From Erwinia billingiae Eb661 (GTDB lineage Bacteria > Pseudomonadota > Gammaproteobacteria > Enterobacterales > Enterobacteriaceae), in assembly GCF_000196615.1 (NCBI RefSeq), contig NC_014306.1:4030001-4094000 (forward strand): 64,000 nucleotides of DNA, given 5' to 3'. Each line of letters opens with the position of its first letter. Positions within the stretch are counted from its first letter, which is position 1. A program made the position numbers and the translations under genes. Shown one piece after another: positions 1-49,700 of this stretch. The notes under the pieces are model-generated. The model saw only the letters and a program-made list of their open reading frames with translations, ran no database searches and had not been told where the DNA came from.

Positions 1-660
1 GATGGCTTCCAGATCGTGACCTAAGCCAATCACCTGATTAACCATCGCATCACACACCTGCTCCAGGTGGGCATAATCCACGCCGGAGCCGATATGCATA
101 TGGATGCCGACCAGCTTCAGCCTGTGTTGCTTGATGGCTTCCAGCGCCAGCACCAAATCGGTATACCAGATGCCGTGCTTGCTGTTTTCGCCGCCGGTAT
201 TGGTTTTCTGACTGTGGCCGTGACCAAAACCGGGATTGACGCGCAGCCACACCGGATGGCCTTCAGACACCTCGCCCAGCTGGTGCAGCATATCGACGGA
301 ACCGGCGTTGACCGGGATTTTCAGCTCGGCCAGACGTGCCAGCGTCGGCTCATCCAGCACGTCGGCGGTGAAGACAATCTCGTCGCCGCCCGGTGTGAAG
401 CCGGCCACCAGCGCACGCTCAATTTCGCCCAGCGACACCGAATCCACCTTCACGCCTGCGGCGCGCATCAGGCGCAGAATATGGATGTTGGAACAGGCTT
501 TTTGCGCAAAGCGCACCACATCAAACTGCTGCAGCTGCGAGATACGTTCGGCAATGACGCTGGCGTCATAGGCCCAAACCGGTCCACCGTACTGGCGCAC
601 CAGCGGCAGCAGGTTGTCACGGGTTAAAGCGGTTTGGGTGTTGGTAAGTAAGCGTGGCAT
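1..660 (-). CDS. lysA: Diaminopimelate decarboxylase LysA (3' part missing at window start)
   Basis: LysA performs the last step of lysine synthesis, decarboxylating meso-diaminopimelate to L-lysine with pyridoxal phosphate (PLP). The first 220 codons lie in the window; the rest runs off the left edge. Reading back from the ATG at 660, the protein starts MPRLLTNTQT. The PLP lysine is K54 in FAQKACSNIH, followed by the family strings VDSVSLGEIE and, further on, HMHIGSG of the alanine-racemase-like barrel. The start is supported by an AGGAG ribosome site 8 nt upstream. It is divergent from lysR, the arrangement found in E. coli, where LysR with diaminopimelate activates lysA. The identification is secure; the gene is partial only because of the window edge. 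Confidence 0.97.
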   Translation of the reverse strand, partial: MPRLLTNTQTALTRDNLLPLVRQYGGPVWAYDASVIAERISQLQQFDVVRFAQKACSNIHILRLMRAAGVKVDSVSLGEIERALVAGFTPGGDEIVFTADVLDEPTLARLAELKIPVNAGSVDMLHQLGEVSEGHPVWLRVNPGFGHGHSQKTNTGGENSKHGIWYTDLVLALEAIKQHRLKLVGIHMHIGSGVDYAHLEQVCDAMVNQVIGLGHDLEAI

Positions 661-779
661 CGGGACTCTCCTGAAGATAATAAGGCTATTACGCCACAGC
701 CTGAACAGGATGAAAAATATCTGTTTTAACGGAGTCTATTCATCCATGATATGACTTCAATCGTCTCCAGGATAAAAGT
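661..779. promoter_or_regulatory. Divergent lysA/lysR control region
   Basis: These 119 bases separate the start codons of lysA (minus strand) and lysR (plus strand). By analogy with E. coli, LysR should bind here, activating lysA and repressing its own gene. The interval is AT-richer than the flanking genes, as expected for a promoter, but no -10/-35 pair or LysR box is assigned with certainty. The call rests on the conserved divergent gene pair. Confidence 0.5.
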
Positions 780-1700
780 ATGGCTGGCATTACGCTGCGA
801 CATATCGAAATTTTTCACGCCGTGGTCACCGCGGGCAACCTGACGGAAGCCGCTGCGTTGCTGCATACCTCGCAGCCCACCGTCAGCCGCGAACTGGCGC
901 GTTTCGAAAAGCTGGTCGGCCTGAAGCTGTTCGACCGCGTGCGCGGCCGTCTGCAGCCCACGGTGCAGGGCCTGCGGCTGTTTGAAGAGGTTCAGCGTTC
1001 CTGGTATGGCCTGGACCGGATCGTCAGCGCCGCCGAAGGCCTGCGCCAGTTTCGTCAGGGTGAACTGTCAATTGCCTGCCTGCCGGTGTTTTCGCAGTCG
1101 CTGCTGCCGCTGTTTTGTCGGCCCTTTTTGCAACGCTACCCGGACGTCAGCCTGAACATTATTCCGCAGGAATCCCCGCTGCTTGAAGAGTGGCTCTCCG
1201 CGCAGCGCTACGATTTGGGGCTGACGGAAACCCGCCTGACGCCGGCCGGAACCGAGCGCACCGAGCTGTTTACCGGTAATGAGGTGTGCGTGCTGCCGGA
1301 CGGTCATCCGCTGGCGGCGAAAGCCTGCTTAACGCCGGAGGATTTTGCCGGTGAGGATTACATCAGCCTGTCGCGAGCCGACAGCTATCGCCAGCTGCTG
1401 GACAATCTGTTTCATGAGCAGGGCGTGCAAAGGAGGATGGTGCTGGAGACGCACAGCGCGGCGTCGGTGTGTTCGATGGTCAGAGCCGGCGTCGGCGTGT
1501 CGATCGTCAACCCGCTGACCGCGCTGGACTATGCCGGAAGCGGCGTGGTGATCAGGCGCTTCAGTATTGATGTGCCCTTTACCGTCAGCCTGGTCAGGCC
1601 ACGCCACCGCCCTTCTTCGGCGCTGGTTGAGGCTTTCTGCGCCCATTTACTTGAGCACATCAGCCTGGTTAACCAGCGCCTTGCGGCGTTATTGCATTAA
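780..1700 (+). CDS. lysR: LysR, transcriptional activator of lysA
   Basis: This 306-residue protein is a LysR-type regulator: an N-terminal winged helix-turn-helix (about residues 4-62, with LTEAAALLHTSQPTVSRELA as the recognition region) followed by a two-lobed effector-binding domain (about 90-295). In E. coli LysR senses diaminopimelate and switches on lysA. The length is close to the E. coli protein (311) and the gene is divergent from lysA, which decides the orthology. The ATG is preceded by CCAGGAT about 8 nt upstream. Its 3' end overlaps the end of the convergent exporter gene by 4 bp, so there is no terminator between the two. Confidence 0.95.
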   Translation: MAGITLRHIEIFHAVVTAGNLTEAAALLHTSQPTVSRELARFEKLVGLKLFDRVRGRLQPTVQGLRLFEEVQRSWYGLDRIVSAAEGLRQFRQGELSIACLPVFSQSLLPLFCRPFLQRYPDVSLNIIPQESPLLEEWLSAQRYDLGLTETRLTPAGTERTELFTGNEVCVLPDGHPLAAKACLTPEDFAGEDYISLSRADSYRQLLDNLFHEQGVQRRMVLETHSAASVCSMVRAGVGVSIVNPLTALDYAGSGVVIRRFSIDVPFTVSLVRPRHRPSSALVEAFCAHLLEHISLVNQRLAALLH

Positions 1701-2860
1701 GCGTTGACGGTCTGCGCCTGTCCACGTGACGGACGGAAGGTAATCAGACAGAGGATCAGGCCGCCGACCGCCAGCACGGCCGCCGCCACCGGCACCGCCG
1801 TCAGGCCATAACCGCTGCCAATCACCGCACCACCGGCCCAGGCACCAAAGGCGTTCCCGACGTTAAAGGCGGAGATATTCAGCGTCGACACCAGGTTCGG
1901 CGCCTCTTTACCGTGACGCACCACGTTGATCTGCAAACCCGGTACGGTGGCAAAGGTGGCCATCGCCCACAGGAACAGCGTCAGTTCGGCCAGCCACAGC
2001 GCATGGCTGGTCCAGCTGAAGATCAGTGAAAACACCGCGATCAGCGAGAAGCTCAGGATCAGGCTCAAGGACAGCTTGCGGTCCGCCAGCTTGCCGCCAA
2101 GAATATTGCCCACCGTTAACCCGCCACCAATCAGGAACAGCGTCCAGCTGACGCCTTTGTCGCTGATGCCGGTCACCTGCAACAGCAGCGGCGCAATATA
2201 GCTGAACAGCGCAAACATCGCGGCGGCAAAGAACACCGTCATCAGCAGTGACAGCCACAGCTTGCCGTTCGCCAGCGCGCCAATTTCGCTGGCAAGGTGC
2301 ACCGGCTTTTCATCGCGATTGGTGGGCAGGCTGACAATCAGGCCAATAAATGCCAGCACGCCAATCACCGACACGCCCCAGAAGGTGGCGCGCCAGCCGT
2401 ACAGCTGACCAAACCAGGTGCCCAGCGGCACGCCAAGCACGTTCGCCAGCGTCAGGCCGGTAAACATTAGCGCCACCGCCGACGCCTGCTTGCCTGGCGC
2501 AACCAGACTGGCCGCAACCACCGCACCGATGCCGAAGAACGCACCGTGACAGAGGGCAGTAACGACGCGCGCTATCATCAGCAGGTTGTAGCTATAGGCC
2601 AGTGCACAGAGCCCGTTGCCAATAATGAAAATCACCATCAGCAGCATCAGCGTGCGTTTGCGCGGCAGCTTCGCCGTCAACAGCGCCATAATCGGTGCGC
2701 CAATGGCCACACCCAGCGCATAACCGCTGATCAGCCAGCCGGCGGAAGGAATGGAGACGCCGAGGTCTCCCGCCACTTCCGGCAGCAAGCCCATAATGAC
2801 AAATTCCGTGGTGCCGATAGCAAACGCACTCAGCGCCAGCGCCAGTAAGGAAACAGGCAT
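1697..2860 (-). CDS. MFS efflux transporter, AraJ/YdhP-like (DHA1 group)
   Basis: This 387-residue protein has about twelve hydrophobic segments and the signatures of drug:H+ antiporter-1 exporters: AIGTTEFVIMGLLPEVA at the N-terminus, GYALGVAIGAPIMALL in helix 2, and the motif-C-like stretch LTLANVLGVPLGTW in helix 5. It most resembles E. coli YdhP and AraJ, inner-membrane exporters of poorly defined substrates. It lies between lysR and the racemase gene, where E. coli has nothing comparable, so it belongs to a locally acquired or rearranged block. The substrate cannot be deduced. A CRP-like site lies 73 bp upstream of its start. Confidence 0.88.
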   Translation of the reverse strand: MPVSLLALALSAFAIGTTEFVIMGLLPEVAGDLGVSIPSAGWLISGYALGVAIGAPIMALLTAKLPRKRTLMLLMVIFIIGNGLCALAYSYNLLMIARVVTALCHGAFFGIGAVVAASLVAPGKQASAVALMFTGLTLANVLGVPLGTWFGQLYGWRATFWGVSVIGVLAFIGLIVSLPTNRDEKPVHLASEIGALANGKLWLSLLMTVFFAAAMFALFSYIAPLLLQVTGISDKGVSWTLFLIGGGLTVGNILGGKLADRKLSLSLILSFSLIAVFSLIFSWTSHALWLAELTLFLWAMATFATVPGLQINVVRHGKEAPNLVSTLNISAFNVGNAFGAWAGGAVIGSGYGLTAVPVAAAVLAVGGLILCLITFRPSRGQAQTVNA

Positions 2861-2932
2861 GTCACACTCTCCAAATAAATAACGGTCAGGCCAGAAGCCC
2901 GAGGGGGCGTTCCCGGTTGCGGGGATTAAAAG

Positions 2933-2948
2933 TTTGATTCAGATCACA
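2933..2948. promoter_or_regulatory. Candidate CRP site upstream of the MFS exporter
   Basis: TTTGATTCAGATCACA matches the CRP pattern TGTGA-N6-TCACA at nine of ten positions, with a perfect right half-site and correct spacing. It lies 73 bp upstream of the exporter start, a distance compatible with activation. One sequence match alone is modest evidence. Confidence 0.45.
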
Positions 2949-3114
2949 TTAGCAATTAAAGCACAGCTTACCGGCGGCTTATAGATCGGGTCTGTCAAAG
3001 GTCTGTTGCTGATATCGCAATAATCGGCAAACTTTTCAGCAGTAAGTGTTATCCCGCTGAATTAACGGGTTAAAAAAACAGCGAAATTGCCATTTTTACG
3101 AAATCTTTATGGTC

Positions 3115-3120
3115 TATAAT
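3115..3120 (+). promoter_or_regulatory. Candidate -10 element for the trypsin-like lipoprotein gene
   Basis: A perfect TATAAT lies in an AT-rich run. No good TTGACA sits 16-18 bp upstream; the closest sequence there is T-rich. If used, transcription would begin near 3127, leaving a leader of about 215 nt before the ATG at 3344. Confidence 0.4.
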
Positions 3121-3343
3121 TTGCTTCATCCGGCTGTTACATAATACTTTCTGAACAATAGCTTCTAAGATTGATCTGACTTTTCCCGCTTCGGGCGACG
3201 ACAGATTGCCATCTGAGTCAGAAGCCGTAGGCTTTGAGCCTTGTTCAAATGATTAAAGTTTTGCGATGAAGAGCCGATACCTCGAATGGATTCACGGGCG
3301 TTTCCTGAGCTGTGCTTGATCGATTCATTACCGAGGAAGAAAG

Positions 3344-3967
3344 ATGCGACGCGCTGTTTGCCTGCTTGCCCTGTTAGCCAGTGGCTGTTCGGTAGGAAAA
3401 TATGAGTACAGCAAAGAAGCCGAAAAGCGGGTGGATATGACTGTCACCGGCATTCCGACCGTGCTCGGCGTCGGCACGCTGGGCACCACCATTCCGCTGA
3501 CCGCGGACTACAGCCTGACCGCCGCACACGTCGCCAAATTCTCCCTGTATCGCGTCAAATCCTACCATCCTGAATGCGACCTTGCGGTGGTTTACCATAA
3601 GAATGGCAACGTCCCGCCGCCGCATTTCCGCAATGGCCACATTGGCGACAAAATCAATCTGTATGGCTACAGCTTTATCTCGGCGATGCCGGTGGCCTCA
3701 ACCGGCACCAACCTGGTCAATACCGGGCTGAAGAACGACTGGAACAAGGTCAGCTGCGTGGTGGTGGCATCCGATGCGGGCGTGGTGAAGGGCATGTCCG
3801 GCGGCGCGGTGTATAACGCCTCGGACGATTCCATTGGCGGAGTGATTGTCGGCTATTCCAGCCGCATCAACGACCTGAAGTCGGGCAAAGAGCTGTATAA
3901 AAACGTTTCCCTGTACGTGCCTTATGCCCGCTTTAAAGACTGGCTGAACGACGCGATCAAATCATAG
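3344..3967 (+). CDS. Trypsin-like serine protease, predicted lipoprotein
   Basis: This 207-residue protein starts with a short signal peptide ending in a lipobox-like ASGC, so Cys15 would be lipidated; Ser at +2 favours the outer membrane. The body looks like a small chymotrypsin-fold protease: His62 in LTAAHVAK, Asp79 in ECDLAVV and Ser152 in the loop GMSGGAVY form a plausible catalytic triad. The His-to-Asp distance of 17 residues is short, as in compact bacterial and viral trypsin-like domains. A strong ribosome site GAGGAAG precedes the ATG. It has no counterpart at this place in E. coli. Target and function are unknown, and a proteolytically inactive binding role cannot be excluded. Confidence 0.8.
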   Translation: MRRAVCLLALLASGCSVGKYEYSKEAEKRVDMTVTGIPTVLGVGTLGTTIPLTADYSLTAAHVAKFSLYRVKSYHPECDLAVVYHKNGNVPPPHFRNGHIGDKINLYGYSFISAMPVASTGTNLVNTGLKNDWNKVSCVVVASDAGVVKGMSGGAVYNASDDSIGGVIVGYSSRINDLKSGKELYKNVSLYVPYARFKDWLNDAIKS

Positions 3968-3978
3968 CCTCGCCCACA

Positions 3979-4677
3979 TCATCGATCGGACAGCATAAAA
4001 TCAACTGCCGCAGCCGCATGGATCGCGGTGGTATCGAACACCGGGATCGGGCAATCTTCCGCCTGCAGCAGTAAGCCAATTTCGGTACAGCCAAAGATAA
4101 TCCCTTCCGCGCCCTCGGCCACTAACCCGGCAATCACCTGTTGATAATATGCTTTCGACGCCGGGCTAAACTCGCCCAGACAGAGCTGTTCAAAGATGAT
4201 GCGGTTTACTTCCTGCCGCGCGGCGGCATCGGGCACCAGGGTTTCAATGCCAAACTCGCTGGCCAGCGGCCCGCGATAGAAATCCTGCTCCATGGTGTAG
4301 CGCGTGCCCAGCAGCGCCACGCGGGACATCTTTTGCTGCTGAATGGCTTTGGCCGTGGCTTCCGCGATGTGCAGAAAAGGCAAACCGCTTTGCTCGACGA
4401 TCGGCGCGGCGACTTTGTGCATGGTGTTAGTACAGAGCACGATGCCTTCCGCGCCGGCTTTTTTCAGCGCCAGCGCCGCATCGGCCAGCATCTGCCCGGC
4501 CCGATCCCAGTCGCCGCTGGCCTGACAGGCTTCAATCTCATGAAAGTCCACGCTGTACAGCACCAGCCTCGCCGAGTGCAGGCCACCCAGCCGCTGTTTG
4601 ATCCCTTCATTGATCAGGCGGTAATACGGCACGGTGGATTCCCAACTCATGCCGCCAATCAGTCCCAAGGTTTTCAT
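3979..4677 (-). CDS. ygeA: Broad-specificity amino-acid racemase YgeA (Asp/Glu racemase family)
   Basis: The protein of about 232 residues matches E. coli YgeA almost end to end ([20 protein letters not shown] region, [16 protein letters not shown]). The family racemizes amino acids without cofactor, using two cysteines; here they sit in VLCTNTMHK and FGCTEIG. Two ATG codons are adjacent at 4680 and 4677. The second has the better AGGA spacing (7 nt) and matches the E. coli start MKT. In E. coli ygeA follows lysR, so its position is ancestral. Here it is also 70 bp downstream of and co-oriented with the DUF1989/ABC array, and could be its last gene. Confidence 0.92.
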
Positions 4678-4747
4678 CATCGCGTCCTGGTGAAGGGCTA
4701 AAAATCAGTCCCTCACTATTCCGCATTCTTCGCTGCGGATCAATTTA

Positions 4748-5419
4748 TCAGGCAGGAACCCACGGACCTTTTACTTCGCTATCAGAAAAACCTTCCGCCA
4801 GAATGCGTACCGTTGCGTCGCGCGGGGTGTTATCGCCCTGCCCCTGAATGCTGACGATATCTTGCGGGCAGGCGGAGAAGGCCACAAAGCAATCCATCTC
4901 GGCACGCAGCACGATGTAATCGCCCGGCCGGGTGACCACCGGTAGCGTTTTCAGGGTGAGGCCATCCGGCTGCACCTGAATATTCATAAAGATATTAAAG
5001 GAGGCCAGGTTGCCATGCGGCAGCGTCACACCCAGCTCGGCCATCCCTTCGTGCAGATTGTCATGGCAGTTACGGTGCGGCTCGGTACAGCCCAACAGCT
5101 CATAGCGACGGGCATCGCAGGCGGCCATAAAGGTATCGTGGACGCCAGGCGAGGTGTCGGCAACCACGGTCAAAATGGGATGGCGCTGGTTGGTGATAAA
5201 GCTGTCGCCGGTCTTCGGGTTCAGGCGCTGGTTCCAGACACGGGTCGCCTCCATACACATGTATTCGCTGACGTCATCGGCGTTATAGGCCCAGCAGTCG
5301 ACAACCTGGGTGCCGTGGGTATTGATAACCTGCACCGCTTCGCCTTTTTTCAGGCGGAACGCTTTGCCATGACGCGCCGGGACAAGGTGTTCTTCGCGGC
5401 AGAGTGAGTCTTGTTGCAT
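4748..5419 (-). CDS. DUF1989 family protein A (urea carboxylase-associated / carboxyguanidine deiminase-like)
   Basis: This 223-residue cytosolic protein belongs to DUF1989, the family of the urea carboxylase-associated proteins. Two such proteins form carboxyguanidine deiminase in guanidine-degrading bacteria. Family motifs are intact: GVHDTFMAACD (92-102), HRNCHDNL (115-122) and SACPQDI (182-188), carrying the Cys and His residues thought to hold metal or act in catalysis. It is the last of three DUF1989 genes on the minus strand and follows the permease pair by 13 bp, so it is probably co-transcribed. No carboxylase is encoded nearby, so a guanidine pathway is not established. Family assignment is firm, substrate unknown. 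Confidence 0.88.
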   Translation of the reverse strand: MQQDSLCREEHLVPARHGKAFRLKKGEAVQVINTHGTQVVDCWAYNADDVSEYMCMEATRVWNQRLNPKTGDSFITNQRHPILTVVADTSPGVHDTFMAACDARRYELLGCTEPHRNCHDNLHEGMAELGVTLPHGNLASFNIFMNIQVQPDGLTLKTLPVVTRPGDYIVLRAEMDCFVAFSACPQDIVSIQGQGDNTPRDATVRILAEGFSDSEVKGPWVPA

Positions 5420-5432
5420 CGGATGCTCCTGG

Positions 5433-6098
5433 TTAGCCCGGCGAACGGGCGAGATAACGGGTCATCCGCCTCTCGGCCCGGCGGGCAAGATGATCGATAA
5501 CGCTGCAAAGCAGCCAGTAAATCAGCGCCACCGCCAGATAGATCTCCAGCGGCGCGTAGGTTTCGGAAATCGCCTGTTTGGCGGCATACATAAATTCAGG
5601 CACCGACACCACCGACAGCAGCGCGGAGTCTTTAATCAGCCCGATCAGCAGCCCAACCAGCGGCGACAGCATCTGCGGCAGGGTTTGCGGCAGGATCACA
5701 TCGCTGAAGGTGCGGAACCGTCCCAGCCCGAGAACGCGGGATGCCTCCCACTGACCGCGCGGCAATGCCTCAAGCCCGGCACGCAGGACCTGCGCGATAT
5801 AGGGCGCGTAATACAATGTCAGTGCCACTACGCCCACCACCGGTGAGGAAAGGGTGATGTCGTATTCGGGCAGCACAAAATAGAGCAGATAAATCACCAC
5901 CAGCAGCGGCAACCCCAGCGTAACCGAGCTGTAGAAACGCAGCAGCGGTTGCCAGAACGGCGCAGCCCGCATCAGTAACAGTGCCAGGGTTGAGCCGGCA
6001 ATCAGTGAGGCGATCGCCGCCACCACGCACAGTTGCAGCGTCACCAGCATGCCCTGCCCCAGCGAAGGTGCAGCGGTAATAATTGCCTGCCAGTCCAT
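5433..6098 (-). CDS. Polar amino-acid-type ABC transporter permease (second of the pair)
   Basis: This 221-residue inner-membrane protein belongs to the HisM/GlnP permease family. It has about five hydrophobic helices and the EAA loop GQWEASRVLGLGRFRTFSDV near residues 125-145, which docks on the ATPase. Its ATG overlaps the stop of the preceding permease gene (TAATG), implying translational coupling and a heterodimeric membrane channel. The adjacent binding protein is also of the amino-acid class. No ATP-binding subunit is encoded in the cluster, so one must come from elsewhere if the transporter works. Confidence 0.92.
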   Translation of the reverse strand: MDWQAIITAAPSLGQGMLVTLQLCVVAAIASLIAGSTLALLLMRAAPFWQPLLRFYSSVTLGLPLLVVIYLLYFVLPEYDITLSSPVVGVVALTLYYAPYIAQVLRAGLEALPRGQWEASRVLGLGRFRTFSDVILPQTLPQMLSPLVGLLIGLIKDSALLSVVSVPEFMYAAKQAISETYAPLEIYLAVALIYWLLCSVIDHLARRAERRMTRYLARSPG

Positions 6099-6748
6099 TA
6101 CGCTCTCCCCCGCTGTTCCAGCCAGCGCGCCGCCCGGATAAGCGGCAGCGCAATCAGTAAGTAACCCAGCGAAACCAGCAGCATCACCTGCGTGGCCTCA
6201 TAGCTGCGGGCAATGACAATCTGCCCGGCATAGGTTAGCTCGGTCAGGGCGACCACCGATGCCAGCGGCGTGGTTTTCAGCAGGATGGTAAATTCATTGA
6301 CTAACATCGGCAGGCTGGCGCGCATCACCTGTGGATTGATGATGTACCACCAGGTCAGCCAGCGGCTCAAACCCAGCGTTCTTGCCGCCTCCAGCTGGCC
6401 GCGAGAAACCAGACGCCGGTTTACCCGCAGGATTTCGGCGACATAGGCGCCGCTGTTCATGCCAATCGCCACAACGGCGGCCAGCAGAGGCTGGCCGCCC
6501 AGGCCTAACAACGGCAAGGTAAAGAACACCACAAAGAGCTGGACGATGGCGGGCGTGCCGCGCATCAGGCTGACATACAGTCGCCCAATCAGACGCGGCG
6601 GCCAGCTGCGGCAGAGTTGCAGGTAGCAGCCGATTTGGCCGAGTACCAGACTCACTAACGCCGCCAACGCAGTCAGTTCAAGCGTGACCAGTAAACCCCG
6701 GCCCAGCTCAGGCAGTCCTGCGGTGACTTCTGCATCCAGCCCCAACAT
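6098..6748 (-). CDS. Polar amino-acid-type ABC transporter permease (first of the pair)
   Basis: This 216-residue permease is of the HisQ/GlnP type, with the conserved N-terminal pattern GLLVTLELTALAALVSLVLG, the string SLMRGTPAIVQLFVVFF, and an EAA loop GQLEAARTLGLSRWLTWWY. It would pair with the following permease, with which it overlaps by 1 nt. It starts 4 bp after the third DUF1989 gene, so the whole array reads as one operon. The substrate is probably amino-acid-like, judged from the binding protein rather than from the permease itself. Confidence 0.92.
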   Translation of the reverse strand: MLGLDAEVTAGLPELGRGLLVTLELTALAALVSLVLGQIGCYLQLCRSWPPRLIGRLYVSLMRGTPAIVQLFVVFFTLPLLGLGGQPLLAAVVAIGMNSGAYVAEILRVNRRLVSRGQLEAARTLGLSRWLTWWYIINPQVMRASLPMLVNEFTILLKTTPLASVVALTELTYAGQIVIARSYEATQVMLLVSLGYLLIALPLIRAARWLEQRGRA

Positions 6749-6752
6749 CGCG

Positions 6753-7403
6753 TTATCCGCCCGTAAAGTCGTGAAGATTTTCCGCTACCGACAGCAGCAG
6801 CGGCGCCGGCTTATCGTTACCTTCAATGCCGGTACAGCAGGCCGAGGCGATAAACAGCGTATCCTGCACCACGCGGCAGGTAATGCTGTCGCCGGCTTGG
6901 GTCAGGTTCGGCTGTGGCCGAATGTCACCGTTGCGGGCCAGCTCAACATGCATAAACAGGTTGATCGGATCCGGCAGCTTCGGCACCGCCATCTGCAAAC
7001 GAACCAGTTCCGCTTGTACCGCGTCATAGCAGCCCTGCTGCCCCTGATAGCCCTGCGCGCTCAGCCATGCCGTGGTCGAGGCGGGCAGCAGCAAATCGTG
7101 GCGGCGAACGCTGTCTTTCCCCAGCACCATCACCGGACGGCGGCGGTTGTTGACCATGCGCATCCCCGAGCCCAGCAGATAGCTGTTGCTGAACACGCGG
7201 GTGTGGTGGACCGACAGCCAGACATTCGGTTCAGCCAGGCTGAAACCATACAGGGACGCGACGGCACCGGCGTCTGCCGCAGCGATCCGCAGCAGCTGGC
7301 CGCGCAGCACTTTGATGCTGCCGACGGTTCCCGCTGCAACCCGGACGGGTTCAGCCAGGGTACGGGGAGTATCAGAGGCAAAGCCTTCTTTCATTAACAG
7401 CAT
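6753..7403 (-). CDS. Divergent DUF1989 family protein C, key motifs lost
   Basis: This 216-residue protein aligns along its length with its two DUF1989 neighbours (pattern RRPVMVLGKDSVRRHDLLLP, then PINLFMHVEL and GDSITCRVV), but the motif residues differ. The GxHDxxxxACD segment reads RRHDLLLPAST (100-110), HRNCxDNL reads QQGCYDAV (122-129), and SxCPQDI reads SACCTGI. It is therefore unlikely to carry the same active site and may be a structural partner in a hetero-oligomer, as two unlike DUF1989 chains are in carboxyguanidine deiminase. It starts 1 base after protein B ends, with GAGG 6 nt upstream of the ATG. Membership in DUF1989 is inferred from context plus partial motif retention. Confidence 0.72.
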   Translation of the reverse strand: MLLMKEGFASDTPRTLAEPVRVAAGTVGSIKVLRGQLLRIAAADAGAVASLYGFSLAEPNVWLSVHHTRVFSNSYLLGSGMRMVNNRRRPVMVLGKDSVRRHDLLLPASTTAWLSAQGYQGQQGCYDAVQAELVRLQMAVPKLPDPINLFMHVELARNGDIRPQPNLTQAGDSITCRVVQDTLFIASACCTGIEGNDKPAPLLLSVAENLHDFTGG

Positions 7404-7404
7404 T

Positions 7405-8019
7405 TCAGGCCTCGCTTAGGGTGTAACGGTCAGAAACGGTGATATCAATCGGGGTGACCTGCAGGCCGTTACCCGGAATAATGTCCTGCGGGCAGGAAGA
7501 GACGGCGCAAATGAGGTCGCACAGGGCTTCGAACACAATGCTGTCGCCGGCGCGGCTGTTAGGGTCGGTCACTTCCATCCGGCCATCGGCGGTCACCGGG
7601 CCATTCTGGAACAGGTTAAACGGCTCCGGCAGGCTGTAGTAAGTGATGCCAAATGGCTTCATGCCTTCCAGCAGGTTATCAACACAATTGCGGTGCCCTT
7701 CGACGCCGAAATCGATACTGAAACGCGTACGATCGCAGGCGGGCACGTTGGCATCGTGGATGCCAATGCTGTCCGAGACAATCTTCAGCATCGGCCGGTT
7801 TTCACTGGACCACAGCGCATCGCCCGGCTTAAAGAACAACGAGCGCAAGTGCTGACGGGTGTGAACCGGTGAAAGCTTCTCCTGGATATTCTCAGCGCTG
7901 ACGGCGACAAAGTCGGCCGCCTGCTGGCCGAGGGTGTCGATAACGGTAATAAACTGGCCTTTACGCACGGTGAACGTCTGGCCGTGTCCGGCGGTAACAT
8001 GGACATGTTGCTGGCACAT
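7405..8019 (-). CDS. DUF1989 family protein B (urea carboxylase-associated-like)
   Basis: Starting at the ATG at 8019, this is a 204-residue protein. An upstream in-frame start at 8133 would overlap the binding-protein gene by 110 bp and is rejected, because AGGAA sits about 8 nt before 8019. Family motifs are intact: GIHDANVPACD (86-96), GHRNCVDNL (108-116) and SSCPQDI (174-180). Protein A and this one are the two members likely to be catalytically competent. It lies 4 bp after the binding-protein gene and 1 bp before DUF1989-C, so the genes are tightly coupled. The reaction is unknown; by family analogy it would be hydrolysis at a C-N bond of a guanidino- or ureido-type compound. Confidence 0.88.
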   Translation of the reverse strand: MCQQHVHVTAGHGQTFTVRKGQFITVIDTLGQQAADFVAVSAENIQEKLSPVHTRQHLRSLFFKPGDALWSSENRPMLKIVSDSIGIHDANVPACDRTRFSIDFGVEGHRNCVDNLLEGMKPFGITYYSLPEPFNLFQNGPVTADGRMEVTDPNSRAGDSIVFEALCDLICAVSSCPQDIIPGNGLQVTPIDITVSDRYTLSEA

Positions 8020-8023
8020 AGTC

Positions 8024-8860
8024 TTATTCCTGCGGGATAAAGTTATCGGCAGGCACGACGATCGTGGTACCAAGGTATTGCTGCTGCAGTTTGGCCAGCT
8101 CGCCCGATTTCTGCATCGCCAGAATATGGTCACTGATGGCTTTGTTCAGCGCGACATCGTCTTTACGGGTAGCCCATGCCATCCACTGCGACGGACCCAC
8201 TTCGCCCACCTGGCTCAGCTTAGCCGGGTATTTTTTGGCGACCGGGGCCAGCACCGCAATATCATCGATAACGAAATCGGCACGTTTGGTCATCAGGGCG
8301 CTGACCGTCTGATCCAGCGTATCCACGCTGATAATCTCAATCGGCTTCAGGCCTTTGCTTTTCAGCGTTTCGTTGAAGGTTTTCAGCAGCTGCTCGGGCA
8401 CGCTGGTGCTTTTCGCCGCGCCGCGCAGGCCGGCCAGCGATTCAATGCTCAGCGGCTTAGCGCTGAATTTTCCGGCTTCATCTTTGCGGATCAGAATGCC
8501 GTTAACGGTTTTGCTGTAGGGAACGGTGAACAGCACTTTTTTTGCCCGCTCGGCATTGACGTTCAGCGAGGAGCCTTCGGCATTGAACGAGCCGGAAATC
8601 AGACCTGGGATGATGCCGTTGAACGCGGTCTTCTGAAAATCGAGTTTCACGCCGAGATCTTTCGCCACCGACTGCATGATCGAGACGCTGTAGCCGATGA
8701 TTTCGCCTTTATCGTTGGTGTACTCATACGGCGGAAAAGTGGGGTCAATACCGACGGTCATTTTGCCGCTGGCTTTGATGTCCGCCAGAGTATCTGCCTG
8801 AGCGAGGCCGCTGGCGCCTAAGGTCAGCATTGCAGCGAGGAGAAGCGTTATTTTTTTCAT
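8024..8860 (-). CDS. Periplasmic amino-acid-type ABC binding protein
   Basis: From the ATG at 8860 the protein is 278 residues with a clear signal peptide (MKKITLLLAAMLTLGASGLAQA, cleaved near residue 22). A longer frame from 8977 would put 39 extra residues before that signal and is not favoured. The fold is solute-binding family 3: GIDPTFPPYEY (37-46), NGIIPGLISG, SSLNVNAER (97-105) and TKRADFVIDD (191-200). By alignment with HisJ, Arg105 and the Asp at 199/200 match the residues that hold the alpha-carboxylate and alpha-amino groups, so an amino-acid-like ligand is expected. It is the first structural gene after a control region bearing a perfect 16-bp palindrome. Confidence 0.9.
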   Translation of the reverse strand: MKKITLLLAAMLTLGASGLAQADTLADIKASGKMTVGIDPTFPPYEYTNDKGEIIGYSVSIMQSVAKDLGVKLDFQKTAFNGIIPGLISGSFNAEGSSLNVNAERAKKVLFTVPYSKTVNGILIRKDEAGKFSAKPLSIESLAGLRGAAKSTSVPEQLLKTFNETLKSKGLKPIEIISVDTLDQTVSALMTKRADFVIDDIAVLAPVAKKYPAKLSQVGEVGPSQWMAWATRKDDVALNKAISDHILAMQKSGELAKLQQQYLGTTIVVPADNFIPQE

Positions 8861-8979
8861 TGGTGTTTCCCATGGTGTTGGTGAAGTGCCTGTCAGAGCT
8901 AATTCACCTTTCGTGCCAGTTTTGCGCTGGCCCGTTTTCACGGGAGAGGAGGAAATTCCTTTTTCCTTTAAAATCACTG

Positions 8980-8995
8980 AGAAACAATTGTTTCT
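8980..8995. promoter_or_regulatory. Perfect 16-bp palindrome, candidate operator of the RpiR-type regulator
   Basis: AGAAACAATTGTTTCT is a perfect inverted repeat placed 120 bp upstream of the binding-protein start and 118 bp downstream of the end of the RpiR-type regulator gene. RpiR-family proteins bind as dimers to such inverted repeats. Its position between regulator and operon makes it the best operator candidate, but no experimental motif supports it. Confidence 0.5.
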
Positions 8996-9112
8996 TTAGT
9001 GGGTAATATTTTTTCTCGGGTTTCTTTGGCCCTGTTTTCGCCATTTTTGACGGTGATTGAGGTGAACGTTGACGGTGCAATAACGCGCGGCGATTGCACT
9101 AAAAGCGTGCAG

Positions 9113-9964
9113 CTATTCCAGTTCGTCGAGCCACTGGTGGATGTTTTCGATCAACGCCAGCCGATCGCTACTGGCTTTGCCTTTCTCACGGGCCACCAGC
9201 GAGCAGAGAAGATTGCAAATGCCTGACAGAGAGGCGGTGCTGTCAAAGATCAGGCTGCCTTCCGTGTGGCAACGGATGATCCAGCTGGCCTGCTTCGCCG
9301 GTTTACCGGAGAGCACATCCGACAGATAAAGCATCGGCACCTTCAGCTCATTTAAGGCGTTCATCGCGCTATTCAGAGCCGGCATACGACGCCGCAGTCC
9401 GACGCAAATCGCCACATCTTCCGGGCCTAATGCGGCCAGAGATTCCGCCAGTGAATCCCCTGCTTTTGGCAGCAGCTGTACGTCGCGATGAACATGAACC
9501 AGATCGCGGTAGATCAGCGAGGCGATGGTCTGGCTGTGCCGCCAGCCAAGCACCACTACGCGGCGCGCTTGAGCAATCGCGCTGACCACATCGGCCAGCT
9601 GTTGGGCATCCAGCGAACGGTAGGTATTAACCAGGTTGGCAATTTCGCGCTCCAGATGGCTCTGGATCAGCGAATCCAGGCCCGAGGTTGCCTGAAACTG
9701 TTGCAGATAAAGGGGCGATCCGCCGCTTTGCAGCTCGCGCACCTGACGACGGGCGGCGTCAAAGCTTTCGTAGCCCAGATGTCGGAAAAAACGGGTGGTG
9801 GTGGCTTTAGAGACGCCAGCGCTTTGCGCCAGTTCCGTTGCCGTGTTCATGGCCAGCTGACCGGGTGCCGCAAGGATCACATCCGCTAAACGCTGCTCAT
9901 GGGCTGAGAGTTGATCCCAGCACTGTCTGATGCGGCTCTCAAGCGAGGCCTGTTTCGCGCTCAT
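9113..9964 (-). CDS. RpiR-family transcriptional regulator (HTH + SIS)
   Basis: This 283-residue protein has an N-terminal HTH_6 domain (about residues 1-80, with ELAQSAGVSKATTTRFFRHLGY as its recognition helix region) and a C-terminal SIS domain (about 125-255) that in this family binds a phosphosugar or related ligand. It is co-oriented with and 252 bp upstream of the DUF1989/transport array, so it is the probable local regulator. RpiR-type regulators next to amino-acid ABC and DUF1989 genes, rather than sugar genes, point to a non-sugar effector, but this is inference. The start is supported by AGGAAGA about 4 nt upstream. Confidence 0.87.
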   Translation of the reverse strand: MSAKQASLESRIRQCWDQLSAHEQRLADVILAAPGQLAMNTATELAQSAGVSKATTTRFFRHLGYESFDAARRQVRELQSGGSPLYLQQFQATSGLDSLIQSHLEREIANLVNTYRSLDAQQLADVVSAIAQARRVVVLGWRHSQTIASLIYRDLVHVHRDVQLLPKAGDSLAESLAALGPEDVAICVGLRRRMPALNSAMNALNELKVPMLYLSDVLSGKPAKQASWIIRCHTEGSLIFDSTASLSGICNLLCSLVAREKGKASSDRLALIENIHQWLDELE

Positions 9965-10024
9965 CTGTCTTCCTGATGAAAAAAACCATCCTGCAAAGCG
10001 CGTGCCCGCTTTTCGCAGGGATCT

Positions 10025-10054
10025 AAAAAAGGGGCGAATTGCTTCGCCCCTTTT
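10025..10054 (-). terminator. Rho-independent terminator of lysS
   Basis: On the minus strand, GGGGCGAAGCAATTCGCCCC is followed by six T residues, 20-50 bases after the lysS stop. The arms also carry flanking A and T runs. Confidence 0.9.
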
Positions 10055-10073
10055 GCTGTTTTTTACGACGACA

Positions 10074-11594
10074 TTACTTGCCCGATGGACGCATTGCCGG
10101 GAACAGGATCACGTCACGGATGGTGTGGCTGTTGGTAAACAGCATCACCATACGGTCGATCCCGATGCCCAGACCGGCCGTGGGTGGCAGGCCGTGCTCC
10201 AGTGCGGTCACGTAGTCTTCGTCATAGAACATGGCTTCGTCATCGCCCGCATCCTTGGCATTCACCTGCTGCAGGAAACGCTCGGCCTGATCCTGAGCAT
10301 CGTTCAGCTCGGAGAAGCCGTTACCGATTTCACGCCCGCCGATAAAGAACTCGAAGCGGTCGGTGATTTCCGGGTTCTCGTCGTTACGACGCGCCAGCGG
10401 GGACACCTCAGCCGGGTATTCGGTAATGAAGGTCGGCTGGATCAGATGGCTTTCTGCGGTCTCTTCGAAGATCTCGGTGACCAGACGGCCCAGGCCCCAG
10501 CTCTTCTCGATTTTGATGCCCAGTGACTGCGCGATGGCGGCCGCTTTATCAAAATCGTCGAGGTCGGCGAGGTTGGTTTCCGGACGGTATTTCAGGATCG
10601 CTTCTTTCATCGTCAGCTTGTCGAACGGCTTACCGAAGTCGAACTCCTGCTCGCCGTAAGGCACCACGGTGTTGCCGAGAATGTCCTGAGCCAGCGTACG
10701 GAACAGGCTTTCGGTCAGTTCGATCAGATCTTTGTAATCCGCATACGCCATATAGAGTTCCATCATGGTGAACTCTGGGTTATGACGTGGCGAAATACCT
10801 TCGTTACGGAAGTTACGGTTGATCTCAAACACGCGATCGAAACCGCCAACCACCAGACGCTTCAGATACAGTTCCGGCGCAATACGCAGGTACATATCGA
10901 TATCCAGCGCATTATGATGGGTGGTAAACGGACGGGCAGACGCCCCGCCAGGGATCACCTGCATCATGGGGGTTTCCACTTCCATAAACTCGCGGCCAAC
11001 CATAAAGCTGCGGATACCCGCCATGATTTGCGAACGAATTTTGAAGGTTTTACGCGACTCTTCGTTGGCGATCAGATCCAGATAACGCTGACGGTAGCGG
11101 GTTTCCTGATCGGCCAGGCCGTGGAACTTGTCCGGCAGCGGGCGCAGAGCTTTGGTCAACAGACGCAGTTCGCTACAGTGGATCGACAGCTCGCCGGTTT
11201 TGGTTTTGAACAGCTTACCGCGCGCGCCGACGATGTCGCCAAGGTCCCACTTCTTAAACTGCTCGTTGTAGATGCCTTCCGCCAGATCGTCACGGGAAAC
11301 GTACAGCTGGATGCGGCCGCCGACGTCCTGCAAGGTGACGAAAGAGGCTTTACCCATGATGCGACGGGTCATCATACGACCGGCCACGCTCACTTCGATG
11401 CCCAGCGCTTCCAGCTCTTCGTTCTCGCGTCCGTCGTATTCAGCATGCAGCTGTTCGGAGATGTGGTCACGGCGGAAATCGTTCGGGAATGCCACGCCGT
11501 TTTCACGCAGCGCGCTGAGTTTTTCGCGACGTGCTTTCAGTTCGTTATTCAGCTCAAGTGCGACGTCAGCGCCCTGCGGTTGTTGTTCAGACAT
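10074..11594 (-). CDS. lysS: Lysine--tRNA ligase LysS
   Basis: LysS charges tRNA-Lys with lysine using ATP. The 506-residue protein has the OB-fold anticodon-binding domain (about 65-145) and the class II catalytic core: motif 2 in [20 protein letters not shown] and motif 3 in [13 protein letters not shown] near the C-terminus. The sequence is close to E. coli LysS throughout ([20 protein letters not shown] region). It lies 9 bp after prfB on the same strand, as in E. coli, where prfB and lysS form one operon. It ends at a strong terminator. Confidence 0.98.
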
Positions 11595-11603
11595 GTCAGT
11601 TCC

Positions 11604-12702
11604 TTATAGCCCTGCTTTCAAGCTTGCTTCAATAAAACGGTCCAGATCGCCATCCAGCACCGCCTGAGTATTACGGGTCTCTACGCCGGTACGCAGATCC
11701 TTGATACGTGAATCATCGAGCACGTATGAACGGATCTGGCTTCCCCAGCCGATGTCAGACTTGTTGTCTTCTAACGACTGTTTCTCAGCATTTTTCTTCT
11801 GCATTTCCAGCTCGTACAGCTTCGCCTTCATCTGCTTCATCGCCTGGTCTTTGTTCTTGTGCTGAGAACGGTCATTCTGACACTGGGTTACGGTGTTGGT
11901 CGGCAGGTGAGTAATACGTACCGCCGACTCGGTCCGGTTAACGTGCTGACCACCCGCGCCTGAGGCACGGTAGACGTCAATACGCAGGTCGGCCGGATTG
12001 ATTTCGATATCGATATCGTCATCCACTTCCGGATAAACGAAAGCCGAGCTGAAAGAGGTGTGACGGCGGCCGCCGGAGTCAAATGGACTCTTACGCACCA
12101 GGCGGTGAACGCCGGTTTCGGTACGCAGCCAGCCGAAAGCATAATCGCCGATAATCCGCAGCGTCGCGGATTTGGTTCCGGCAACCTCGCCTTCGGACTC
12201 TTCAATGATTTCGGTCTTGAAGCCTTTGGCTTCTGCCCAGCGCAGGTACATACGGACCAGCATACCGGCCCAGTCCTGGGCTTCGGTGCCGCCAGAACCT
12301 GCCTGAATATCAATGTAGCAGTCCGCGCTGTCGTACTCGCCGGAGAACATGCGGCGGAATTCTAACTCGCCGAGCTTTTTCTCAAGCACGTCGAGTTCAG
12401 CAATGGTTTCGTTGAAGGTTTCTTCATCGTCGGCTTCGACCGCCAGTTCCAGCAGGCCCCTGACATCTTCGAGTCCCTGCTCCATCTGATCCAGCGTGTC
12501 GACGATGGCTTCGAGCGAGGAACGCTCTTTACCCAGCGCCTGGGCGCGATCGGGTTCGTTCCAGACGTCGGGCTGTTCCAGCTCGGCGTTAACTTCTTCT
12601 AAACGTTCTTTCTTGGCATCGTAGTCAAAGATACCCCCTGAGAACGCCACTGCGCTCAGAGAGATCCTGAATTCGGTTCTTTACCGGATTAATTTCAAAC
12701 AT
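11604..12702 (-). CDS. prfB: Peptide chain release factor 2, with programmed +1 frameshift
   Basis: RF2 ends translation at UGA and UAA. The gene starts at the ATG at 12702 (MFEINPV), reads 25 codons to an in-frame UGA at 12625-12627, and continues in the +1 frame from GAC to 11604, giving 365 residues, the E. coli length. In the main frame the stop-recognition tripeptide SPF (KSPFDSGG) and the catalytic GGQ ([14 protein letters not shown]) are both present. Taking 12650 as the start would skip the first 25 codons and yield a false N-terminus, since no good ribosome site precedes it. Expression is autoregulated: low RF2 slows termination at the UGA and favours the shift. Confidence 0.97.
12625..12639 (-). 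promoter_or_regulatory. prfB recoding site (internal Shine-Dalgarno, slip codon, UGA)
   Basis: Reading on the minus strand the site is AGGGGG TAT CTT TGA C. The AGGGGG (12634-12639) acts as an internal Shine-Dalgarno, CTT (12628-12630) is the slippery P-site codon, and TGA followed by C is the weak stop context. This is the same element as in E. coli prfB. Confidence 0.97.
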
Positions 12703-21198: not shown

Positions 21199-24203
<3,005 letters not shown>

Positions 24204-48779: not shown

Positions 48780-49700
48780 CTAGCCTTTGTTAACGGCCTG
48801 AACATGCAGCATATCCAGCGCCAGCGTGGCGGCAGCCAGAGCGGTCAGATCGGACTGGTCATAGCCCGGTGCGACTTCCACCAGATCCATCCCGACGATG
48901 TTCAACCCCTGCAGACCGCGCACCAGCTTGGTTGCTTTATCGGTGGTCAGACCGCCGATCACCGGCGTGCCGGTGCCTGGCGCATGCGCCGGATCGAGGC
49001 AGTCGATATCGAAGGTCAGATAAACCGGCATATCGCCAACGATCTGCTTCACCTGAGCGAGGATGTCATCAACACTGCGGTCGTTAACCTGCGCCGCGTC
49101 CAGCACGTTGAAGCCCAGTGAGGCATCAAACTCGGTACGGATACCGATCTGCACCGAGTGTGCCGGATCGATCAGGCCTTCCTTCGGCGCATGGTGGAAC
49201 ATGGTGCCGTGATCGAAGGTCGGGCCGTTGGAATAGGTATCGGTATGGGCATCAAAATGCACCAGCGCCATCTTACCGAAGTATTTAGCATGAGCGCGCA
49301 GCAGCGGCAGCGTCACGTAGTGATCGCCACCGAAGGTCAGCATACGCTTGCCGTTGGCCAGCAGCTTCTCGGCATGCGCCTGCAGCTTGTCGGTCAGATC
49401 CTGAGAATCGCCAAAGGCGTACACAAGGTCACCGCAGTCGATCACCTTTAAACGCTGACGCAGATCGAAGTTCCACGGCCAGCGGCAGCCTTCCCACGCC
49501 AGGTTAGTGGAGATCTGACGGATCGCGCCAGGGCCCAGGCGGCTGCCAGGACGACCGGAGGTCGCGGCATCGAAAGGAATACCGGTGATCACCCACTCAG
49601 CGTCGCTGTCGTAAGGCTGGAAGTTGATCGGAAAACGCATAAAACCAAAGGCGTTTGACACCAGCGAGTTGTCGTACTGGTTGCCCAGGGTGTTATTCAT
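48780..49700 (-). CDS. speB: Agmatinase SpeB
   Basis: SpeB hydrolyses agmatine to putrescine and urea with two manganese ions. The 306-residue protein has the ureohydrolase metal motifs [20 protein letters not shown] and [18 protein letters not shown]. It follows speA on the same strand, together making the arginine-to-putrescine route. A hairpin terminator lies between them. Confidence 0.97.

Follow-up and report, generated by a model that had tools for sequence, protein, structure and literature searches.

An operon with three DUF1989 paralogues and an importer lacking its own ATPase gene in Erwinia billingiae, which may mark an unknown nitrogen-scavenging pathway

What could a compact bacterial operon do that joins three paralogues of the DUF1989 family to the binding protein and two permeases of an ATP-binding cassette (ABC) importer, and that carries no ATPase gene? 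Such an operon occupies positions 4748-8860, minus strand, of a 64,000-nucleotide stretch (the window) of Erwinia billingiae Eb661 (NC_014306.1, positions 4,030,001 to 4,094,000), which lies on a contig of 5.1 Mb in a genome of 5.37 Mb. Together with an upstream regulator gene, the operon forms a seven-gene unit that is real, maintained and sporadic in its distribution. As to its function, we see about an even chance that the unit serves nitrogen scavenging from an imported amino-acid-like compound, using two DUF1989 enzymes, one of them with a metal-less partner, and a shared ATPase. The genes are the following, from upstream to downstream.

9113..9964, minus strand: MurR/RpiR-family regulator, first gene of the conserved unit (Pfam HTH_6 43 bits, SIS 27.8)
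8024..8860, minus strand: family-3 solute-binding protein (SBP; PF00497 114.1 bits)
7405..8019, minus strand: DUF1989-B, presumed catalytic, with the complete cysteine triad C95, C112, C176 (PF09347 164.9 bits)
6753..7403, minus strand: DUF1989-C, presumed pseudoenzyme partner of B (PF09347 105.7 bits)
6098..6748, minus strand: ABC permease 1, polar-amino-acid type (PF00528 63.1 bits; TIGR01726 85.9 bits)
5433..6098, minus strand: ABC permease 2, polar-amino-acid type (PF00528 89.2 bits; TIGR01726 69.1 bits)
4748..5419, minus strand: DUF1989-A, presumed catalytic, with a complete cysteine triad (PF09347 161.7 bits)

The initial annotation had assigned three genes to DUF1989, and all three are far above the PF09347 cut-off of 27 bits; they are the sole DUF1989 genes found in a whole-genome search. 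The SBP (PF00497) and both HEQRo_perm_3TM permeases (TIGR01726, cut-off 42.2 bits) also exceed their cut-offs, which places them among the polar amino acid importers. In the Pfam and NCBIfam scans, B and the SBP were taken as longer GTG-started open reading frames (ORFs) at 7405-8133 and 8024-8977. The order, compactness and overlap described earlier agree with the coordinates, the spacing being 4 bp for SBP/B, 1 for B/C, 4 for C/permease 1, -1 for the two permeases and 13 for permease 2/A. The RpiR-family gene, 252 bp upstream of the SBP gene on the same strand, lies outside the coordinates originally given; the first reading left it out, together with the upstream nitrogen-control signals described below. 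Neither an ATPase nor a carboxylase gene was detected inside the operon by ORF reading and Pfam.

The seven-gene unit recurs with a fixed architecture. An alignment of C, scanned against one genome per species, yielded 30 named related loci from Pantoea, Erwinia, Winslowiella, Rahnella, Rouxiella, Kosakonia, Mangrovibacter, two records labelled Enterobacter, one unplaced Enterobacterales bacterium, Vibrio xiamenensis and two Pseudomonas. The initial annotation had proposed a search for the gene order in other genomes and had raised the possibility that related clusters always carry a carboxylase and an ATPase. The order RpiR-SBP-B-C-permease-permease-A is kept in 30/30 loci; the seven genes are contiguous, leaving no space for a carboxylase, and in all 30 the cluster itself is free of ATPase-like ORFs. 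Four ATPase-like ORFs lie outside it, in three loci (L020, L029 with two, and L043). Per-gene identity to the window ranges from 56 to 90% among the related loci, and the ratio of nonsynonymous to synonymous substitutions (dN/dS) is 0.06-0.27 in four comparisons (one B value was not computable). The gene lysS is found upstream of the cluster in the window and 12/30 loci, while the flanks differ in Rahnella, Kosakonia, Vibrio, Pseudomonas and others; flanks that differ among genera fit horizontal spread.

These data also bear on the possibility that a larger cluster has decayed and left the operon as a remnant. An ATPase gene is missing although a homologous cluster in Palleronia has one, and a frameshift-like break occurs in one gene in 3/30 loci (the SBP in L019, permease 2 in L026, permease 1 in L043). 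Each break, however, affects a different gene and may be an assembly error; two further break flags were cleared, since C of L042 stops two residues early at its own stop and permease 1 of L046 is slightly short in coverage. With open, in-order genes across several genera and dN/dS well below 1, decay is hardly credible, and the maintained unit is the form to be explained.

The distribution is patchy at every level covered. Of 295 genomes sampled within the order, nine have a match to C at 1e-10, and just two of these nine, the own genome and G238, qualify as strong cluster members; within the genus three of 37 genomes match, the own genome counted. Relatives of C also occur in Devosia, Aurantimonas, Herbaspirillum and Rhodoferax. 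Phylum-wide, C-like matches were present in 38 of 398 genomes, most of those inspected being other DUF1989 types; among 20 loci from the order-level and phylum-wide searches the cluster occurs only in L142, apparently identical to the already counted L023. Searches for remote copies gave one of 277 genomes in one further group and none of 385 and none of 349 in others, the latter two without a positive control. For E. coli (20,395 records), megablast, which covers roughly at least 85% identity and thus not distant relatives, gave no near match to the operon.

The three DUF1989 proteins differ in their putative metal sites. According to one report (PMC12560246), three cysteines carry zinc in trimethylamine N-oxide (TMAO) demethylase and in solved DUF1989 proteins. 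In an alignment that joins window-type proteins to those of 12 Cgd loci and to eight further members of DUF1989, this triad is complete in 4/4 A rows and 4/4 B rows. In C the triad is absent as a set in 13/13 rows, the first cysteine missing in all 13 and the other two positions variable, and C keeps an invariant set of its own (HHTRVFSN, GMR and others). The AlphaFold2 model of C has a predicted local distance difference test score (pLDDT) of 89.4, and its best Foldseek matches are 3siy/3oru (3siy_D with a template modelling score of 0.78 and a root-mean-square deviation of 2.6). Judged from this model, C retains the DUF1989 fold although its metal ligands are lost or not conserved. Of the DUF1989 structures 3ORU/3SIY and 3DI4, whose entry titles name no function, 3oru is also matched by B (118 bits); C differs from these structures in lacking the metal ligands.

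A comparable division is found in the Cgd proteins, where 12 rows labelled CgdB by their TIGR03425 match lack the triad and 11 neighbouring rows, labelled CgdA by neighbourhood without scoring against TIGR03424, contain it. Because B has the triad and C has lost it, as in CgdA/CgdB, B-C appears to have the same catalytic-plus-inactive layout. The residues thus suggest that B and C form a catalytic-plus-inactive pair and that A is a separate catalytic enzyme. In the midpoint-rooted tree of 52 rows (one masked row left out), B and C each form one branch (100/99 and 100/100), and the Cgd proteins occupy their own branch (100/99), from which A, B and C are excluded. A shares a branch (97/97) with DUF1989 proteins that occur alongside ureohydrolases, deacetylase-amidase sets or M20 hydrolases.

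Other arrangements of these proteins have to be weighed against a B-C pair with a separate A. The initial annotation had imagined an imported compound processed by one three-chain complex; in such an enzyme, A and B would be different active subunits and C a scaffold. The three genes stay together in 30/30 loci and in Palleronia, and CgdAB (PMC11271267) offers a precedent for mixed active and inactive DUF1989 subunits. Against this, A stands apart from B-C, behind the permeases, and the A-like gene is the single DUF1989 gene in 8/8 plasmid loci (in the stretch displayed, where gene tables are incomplete), so that a common three-subunit enzyme appears unlikely. The three paralogues, a pathway other than CgdAB and, indirectly, a shared ATPase are the parts of the earlier idea that find support; rather than a three-chain complex, the residues suggest a B-C pair with a separate A. 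Catalysis resembling TMAO demethylase (Tdm; NF053776; PDB 9q59, 9q5a), that is, demethylation or another redox-neutral C-N cleavage of, for example, an N-methyl or N-oxide amino acid, is brought up by the NCBIfam scan, in which A and B score highest against the TMAO demethylase model, and by the zinc cysteines of Tdm lying in its DUF1989 domain (PMC12560246). The scores, 112.5 bits for A, 151.5 for B and 42.3 for C, are far under the cut-off of 1100. Moreover, Tdm is one long chain with a GcvT-like domain, whereas the window proteins are stand-alone short chains, and neither the Pfam nor the NCBIfam scan revealed anything GcvT-like, domain or gene, in the operon. Such a reaction would also require a formaldehyde outlet, none of which is seen in the operon, and we regard it as quite unlikely.

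Closer in layout is the carboxyguanidine deiminase CgdA/CgdB (TIGR03424/TIGR03425, UAAP2/UAAP1), which likewise consists of an adjacent DUF1989 pair, one with and one without the cysteine triad, and serves nitrogen assimilation. The window proteins could be a variant of it, partnered with an unlinked urea/guanidine carboxylase. The genome does contain such a carboxylase, so that the earlier statement of a missing carboxylase holds for the operon and fails for the genome: the unlinked operon L155 (G000:C3:752001-771000) encodes a full-length urea carboxylase (1990.6 bits, cut-off 1303.85) beside ORFs whose translations, read without a family search, suggest an allophanate hydrolase, a GntR regulator and a UrtABCDE-like transporter. 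No other DUF1989 gene in the genome could serve it, and carboxyguanidine deiminase-containing guanidine operons are described for another Erwinia species in PMC12186494, which means that such operons are not foreign to the group. However, the window proteins are placed outside the Cgd branch, a third paralogue is present, and the scores for TIGR03424/TIGR03425 (cut-offs 284.7/205.95) reach only 121.9/69.9 bits for B, 90.5/53.3 for A and 43.2/45.9 for C. An Rfam scan of window 1-12000 gave no match at E up to 1 and no guanidine riboswitch. The operon contains none of the linked features of Cgd systems (carboxylase, allophanate hydrolase, guanidine riboswitch); it has an amino-acid type transporter, and RpiR takes the place of the riboswitch. 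In addition, the absence of CgdAB from the genome and the Urt-like transporter suggest that the L155 carboxylase acts on urea, and urea from any source could be used through that operon. A deiminase variant is therefore improbable, in line with the earlier view of a pathway distinct from guanidine carboxylase/CgdAB, and the B-C pairing with a separate A is retained below.

The surroundings of related DUF1989 genes point, by analogy, to the chemistry. Palleronia A matches 455 records, and from the 30 of these that were listed eight plasmid loci were chosen, with genes as annotated; their A-like gene is accompanied by ureohydrolases and an amino-acid importer in two, an amidase and a polysaccharide deacetylase in four, and an M20 hydrolase and an importer in two. 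In an alphaproteobacterium (L148, 7839-17968), two ureohydrolase genes, an SBP, two permeases (identified by eye), an ATPase and a fourth DUF1989 gene precede B-C-A; C of this locus contains the whole of protein P0140 of Antarcticirhabdus aurantiaca. The operons of Chelatococcus and Salipiger likewise join an amino-acid type importer to an A-like DUF1989 gene, and differ from the window in having two ureohydrolase genes, their own ATPase and one DUF1989 gene. With ureohydrolases, amidases and M20 hydrolases as partners, the neighbours suggest that C-N bonds of guanidino, ureido or amide compounds are hydrolysed. L148 holds four DUF1989 genes in one run, and a hydantoinase-like ORF behind a LysR-like gene was also noted there by eye. 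Plasmids of Pantoea dispersa and Klebsiella pneumoniae (L112, L113) carry an operon of amino-acid importer, M20 hydrolase, A-like DUF1989 and cupin genes, which is flanked by insertion sequences in the Klebsiella pneumoniae plasmid.

The SBP gives a hint at the ligand. It keeps D39, R105 and D200, which align with the head-group residues of a GlnH-type protein, the comparison protein being assigned as GlnH by gene order only. In GlnH-type proteins the equivalents of these residues hold the side-chain amide, the alpha-carboxylate and the alpha-amine, respectively. The SBPs of Chelatococcus (the one checked among the Chelatococcus and Salipiger operons) and L148 have serine at the D200 position. 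On these grounds, the ligand is probably an alpha-amino acid different from that of the ureohydrolase operons.

How this importer is powered is the second part of the question. The window SBP and permeases resemble those of polar amino acid ABC importers (TcyJLN, GlnHPQ, EhuABCD) and exceed the SBP_bac_3 and HEQRo_perm_3TM cut-offs; they differ in that the operon has no ATPase gene and that the equivalog cut-offs are not reached. The Palleronia plasmid cluster, ordered SBP, DUF1989, DUF1989, permease, permease, ATPase, DUF1989, RpiR, has its ATPase gene between permease 2 and A, and its proteins are 66% (A), 56% (B), 41% (C) and 41% (SBP) identical to those of the window. Since this cluster has an ATPase, the simplest history is that the ancestral cluster probably had its own, which was lost in the gammaproteobacterial lineage. 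A genome search with a TcyN-type ATPase gave 59 hits (E up to 1e-30), and each of the best 18 has a permease-like ORF no more than about 1.5 kb away. With no orphan among these 18, one household ATPase encoded elsewhere is probably shared, if the transporter works. The initial annotation had described a transporter without its own ATPase, which the 30 loci bear out, and an ATPase supplied from elsewhere, which the Palleronia cluster and the 18 best ATPases favour indirectly. Weak candidates for it are TcyN and the L058 ATPase. Rouxiella silvae has a tcyJ-tcyL-tcyN cassette for cystine import, scoring above the equivalog cut-offs, immediately upstream of the RpiR gene of the cluster (L043:4872-7138); as a possible source of the shared ATPase it is suggestive only. 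An ATPase of the same regulon, sought through the putative RpiR operator described below, is not supported, as the genome has 15 palindrome sites with at most two mismatches vs 17 for a reversed control pattern. Alternatively, the permeases and SBP might form a sensor or work without any ATPase, consistent with the lack of an ATPase gene inside all 30 clusters. Both permeases, however, keep the EAA-like coupling loop (GQ.EA...G), expected only where an ATPase docks, and the Palleronia cluster includes an ATPase; we consider an ATPase-free system very improbable and continue with a transporter driven by a shared one.

The region between the RpiR and SBP genes contains the following elements.

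9095..9111, minus strand: NtrC-box-like site 1, 2 mismatches to the consensus
9063..9079, minus strand: NtrC-like site 2, some 31 bp from site 1; a single half-site in the window, more fully preserved in several relatives
8980..8995, no strand assigned: perfect palindrome AGAAACAATTGTTTCT, presumed RpiR operator, at most one mismatch in 29/31 loci
8903..8918, minus strand: sigma54-like promoter with the -24 element TGGCAC; its -12 element departs from the usual form in the window genome

The palindrome AGAAACA-NN-TGTTTCT has no mismatch in 19 of 31 loci, one in 10, two in one and three in one, and is located 118-120 bp before the script-chosen ATG of the SBP gene in 27/31. The copy at 8980..8995 is the only site in the genome with fewer than two mismatches. 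An imperfect operator-like copy with two mismatches lies at window 23872-23887; such sites occur at chance level in the genome. The best site for the sigma54-like pattern TGGCAC-N5-TTGCW in the upstream region has at most one mismatch in 21/31 and at most two in 30/31 loci (vs 0.3% and 3.7% of mononucleotide shuffles), and sits 60-62 bp after the palindrome in 29/31, each with at most two mismatches and 21 of them with at most one. NtrC-box-like palindromes are found near ATG-251 and ATG-220, the NtrC consensus being TGCACC-N5-GGTGCA; the best box has at most two mismatches in 19/31 loci vs 0.3% of shuffles. The 31-bp spacing presumably resembles that of known NtrC pairs. Together, the palindrome, the sigma54-like promoter and the NtrC-like boxes suggest a regulated unit, pointing to nitrogen limitation as its trigger.

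Gene content and order, their conservation under purifying selection, the cysteine triads of A and B, the loss of the triad in C and the conserved motifs are observations; the reaction, the substrate, the subunit make-up, the B:C pairing, the sequence of steps, and the loss and sharing of an ATPase are inferences drawn from them. When nitrogen is limiting, NtrC and sigma54-RNA polymerase would transcribe the operon, with the RpiR-type regulator gating transcription through its dedicated palindromic operator. The SBP and the two permeases would import a nitrogen-rich, amino-acid-like compound, probably an alpha-amino acid whose side chain bears a guanidino, ureido or amidino group, driven by an ATPase encoded elsewhere after the presumed loss of the own gene. 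DUF1989-B, a putative zinc-type hydrolase or deiminase stabilised or shaped by C, would make one C-N cut, and DUF1989-A a second, with ammonium being released.

Several observations weigh against this scheme. The window genome is alone among the 31 in having a -12 element without the usual TGC, and its second NtrC-like box is half kept, from which nitrogen control may be weakened there; the sigma54-like site is misplaced or weak in the two Pseudomonas loci. The motif frequencies compare mutually related loci with mononucleotide shuffles, and the first NtrC-like box could instead represent a hairpin that follows the RpiR gene. RpiR regulators, moreover, are better known for sugar metabolism. 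On the transport side, the loss of the ATPase rests on one outgroup cluster, leaving the direction of change unproven. A stand-alone amino-acid ABC ATPase, for which the initial annotation had advised looking, did not turn up among the best 18 of the 59 hits, the neighbours of lower-ranked hits not having been checked. The comparison of coupling loops, in which the TcyL-type permease is narrowly best for permease 1 and the L058 permease for permease 2, gave no clear winner.

Three other genes of the window lie outside the scheme. An aspartate/glutamate racemase gene (window 4680-3979, minus strand) lies 67 bp downstream of the operon and reaches 396.1 bits to PRK10200 (cut-off 417). Used as a neighbourhood query, it was labelled in 0/30 related loci in the stretch displayed, and it is probably an older neighbour outside the conserved unit. 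Window 3344-3967 encodes a small lipoprotein-like protein with a weak trypsin-like match (20.5 bits, under the cut-off of 27.6), a relative of which lies beside the cluster in 11/30 loci. An arginase/agmatinase-family gene is located at window 48807-49598, minus strand (PF00491 293.6 bits).

Literature on DUF1989, Cgd, TMAO demethylase and shared ATPases, judged by titles, abstract openings and passages in a search that covered little of the subscription literature, yielded no description of the operon, which may therefore mark an unknown pathway. Tentatively, and at somewhat less than an even chance, we picture an undescribed, horizontally spread pathway in which catalytic B, with the pseudoenzyme C in a pairing independent of CgdAB, and A would remove nitrogen from a non-protein amino acid taken up from outside, possibly a guanidino or ureido amino acid of plants, and in which a nitrogen-controlled importer gave up its own ATPase to run on a household one. 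DUF1989 proteins are common, and many records name them 'urea carboxylase-associated'; the functions found in the searched literature are the guanidine-pathway deiminase and TMAO demethylase. With a presumed operator of its own, signs of nitrogen control, and two members that are likely active beside a degenerate third, the conserved seven-gene unit provides a testable system for DUF1989 roles outside those pathways. Moreover, the natural pairs of clusters with and without an ATPase would allow the study of how an ABC importer becomes dependent on a shared motor.

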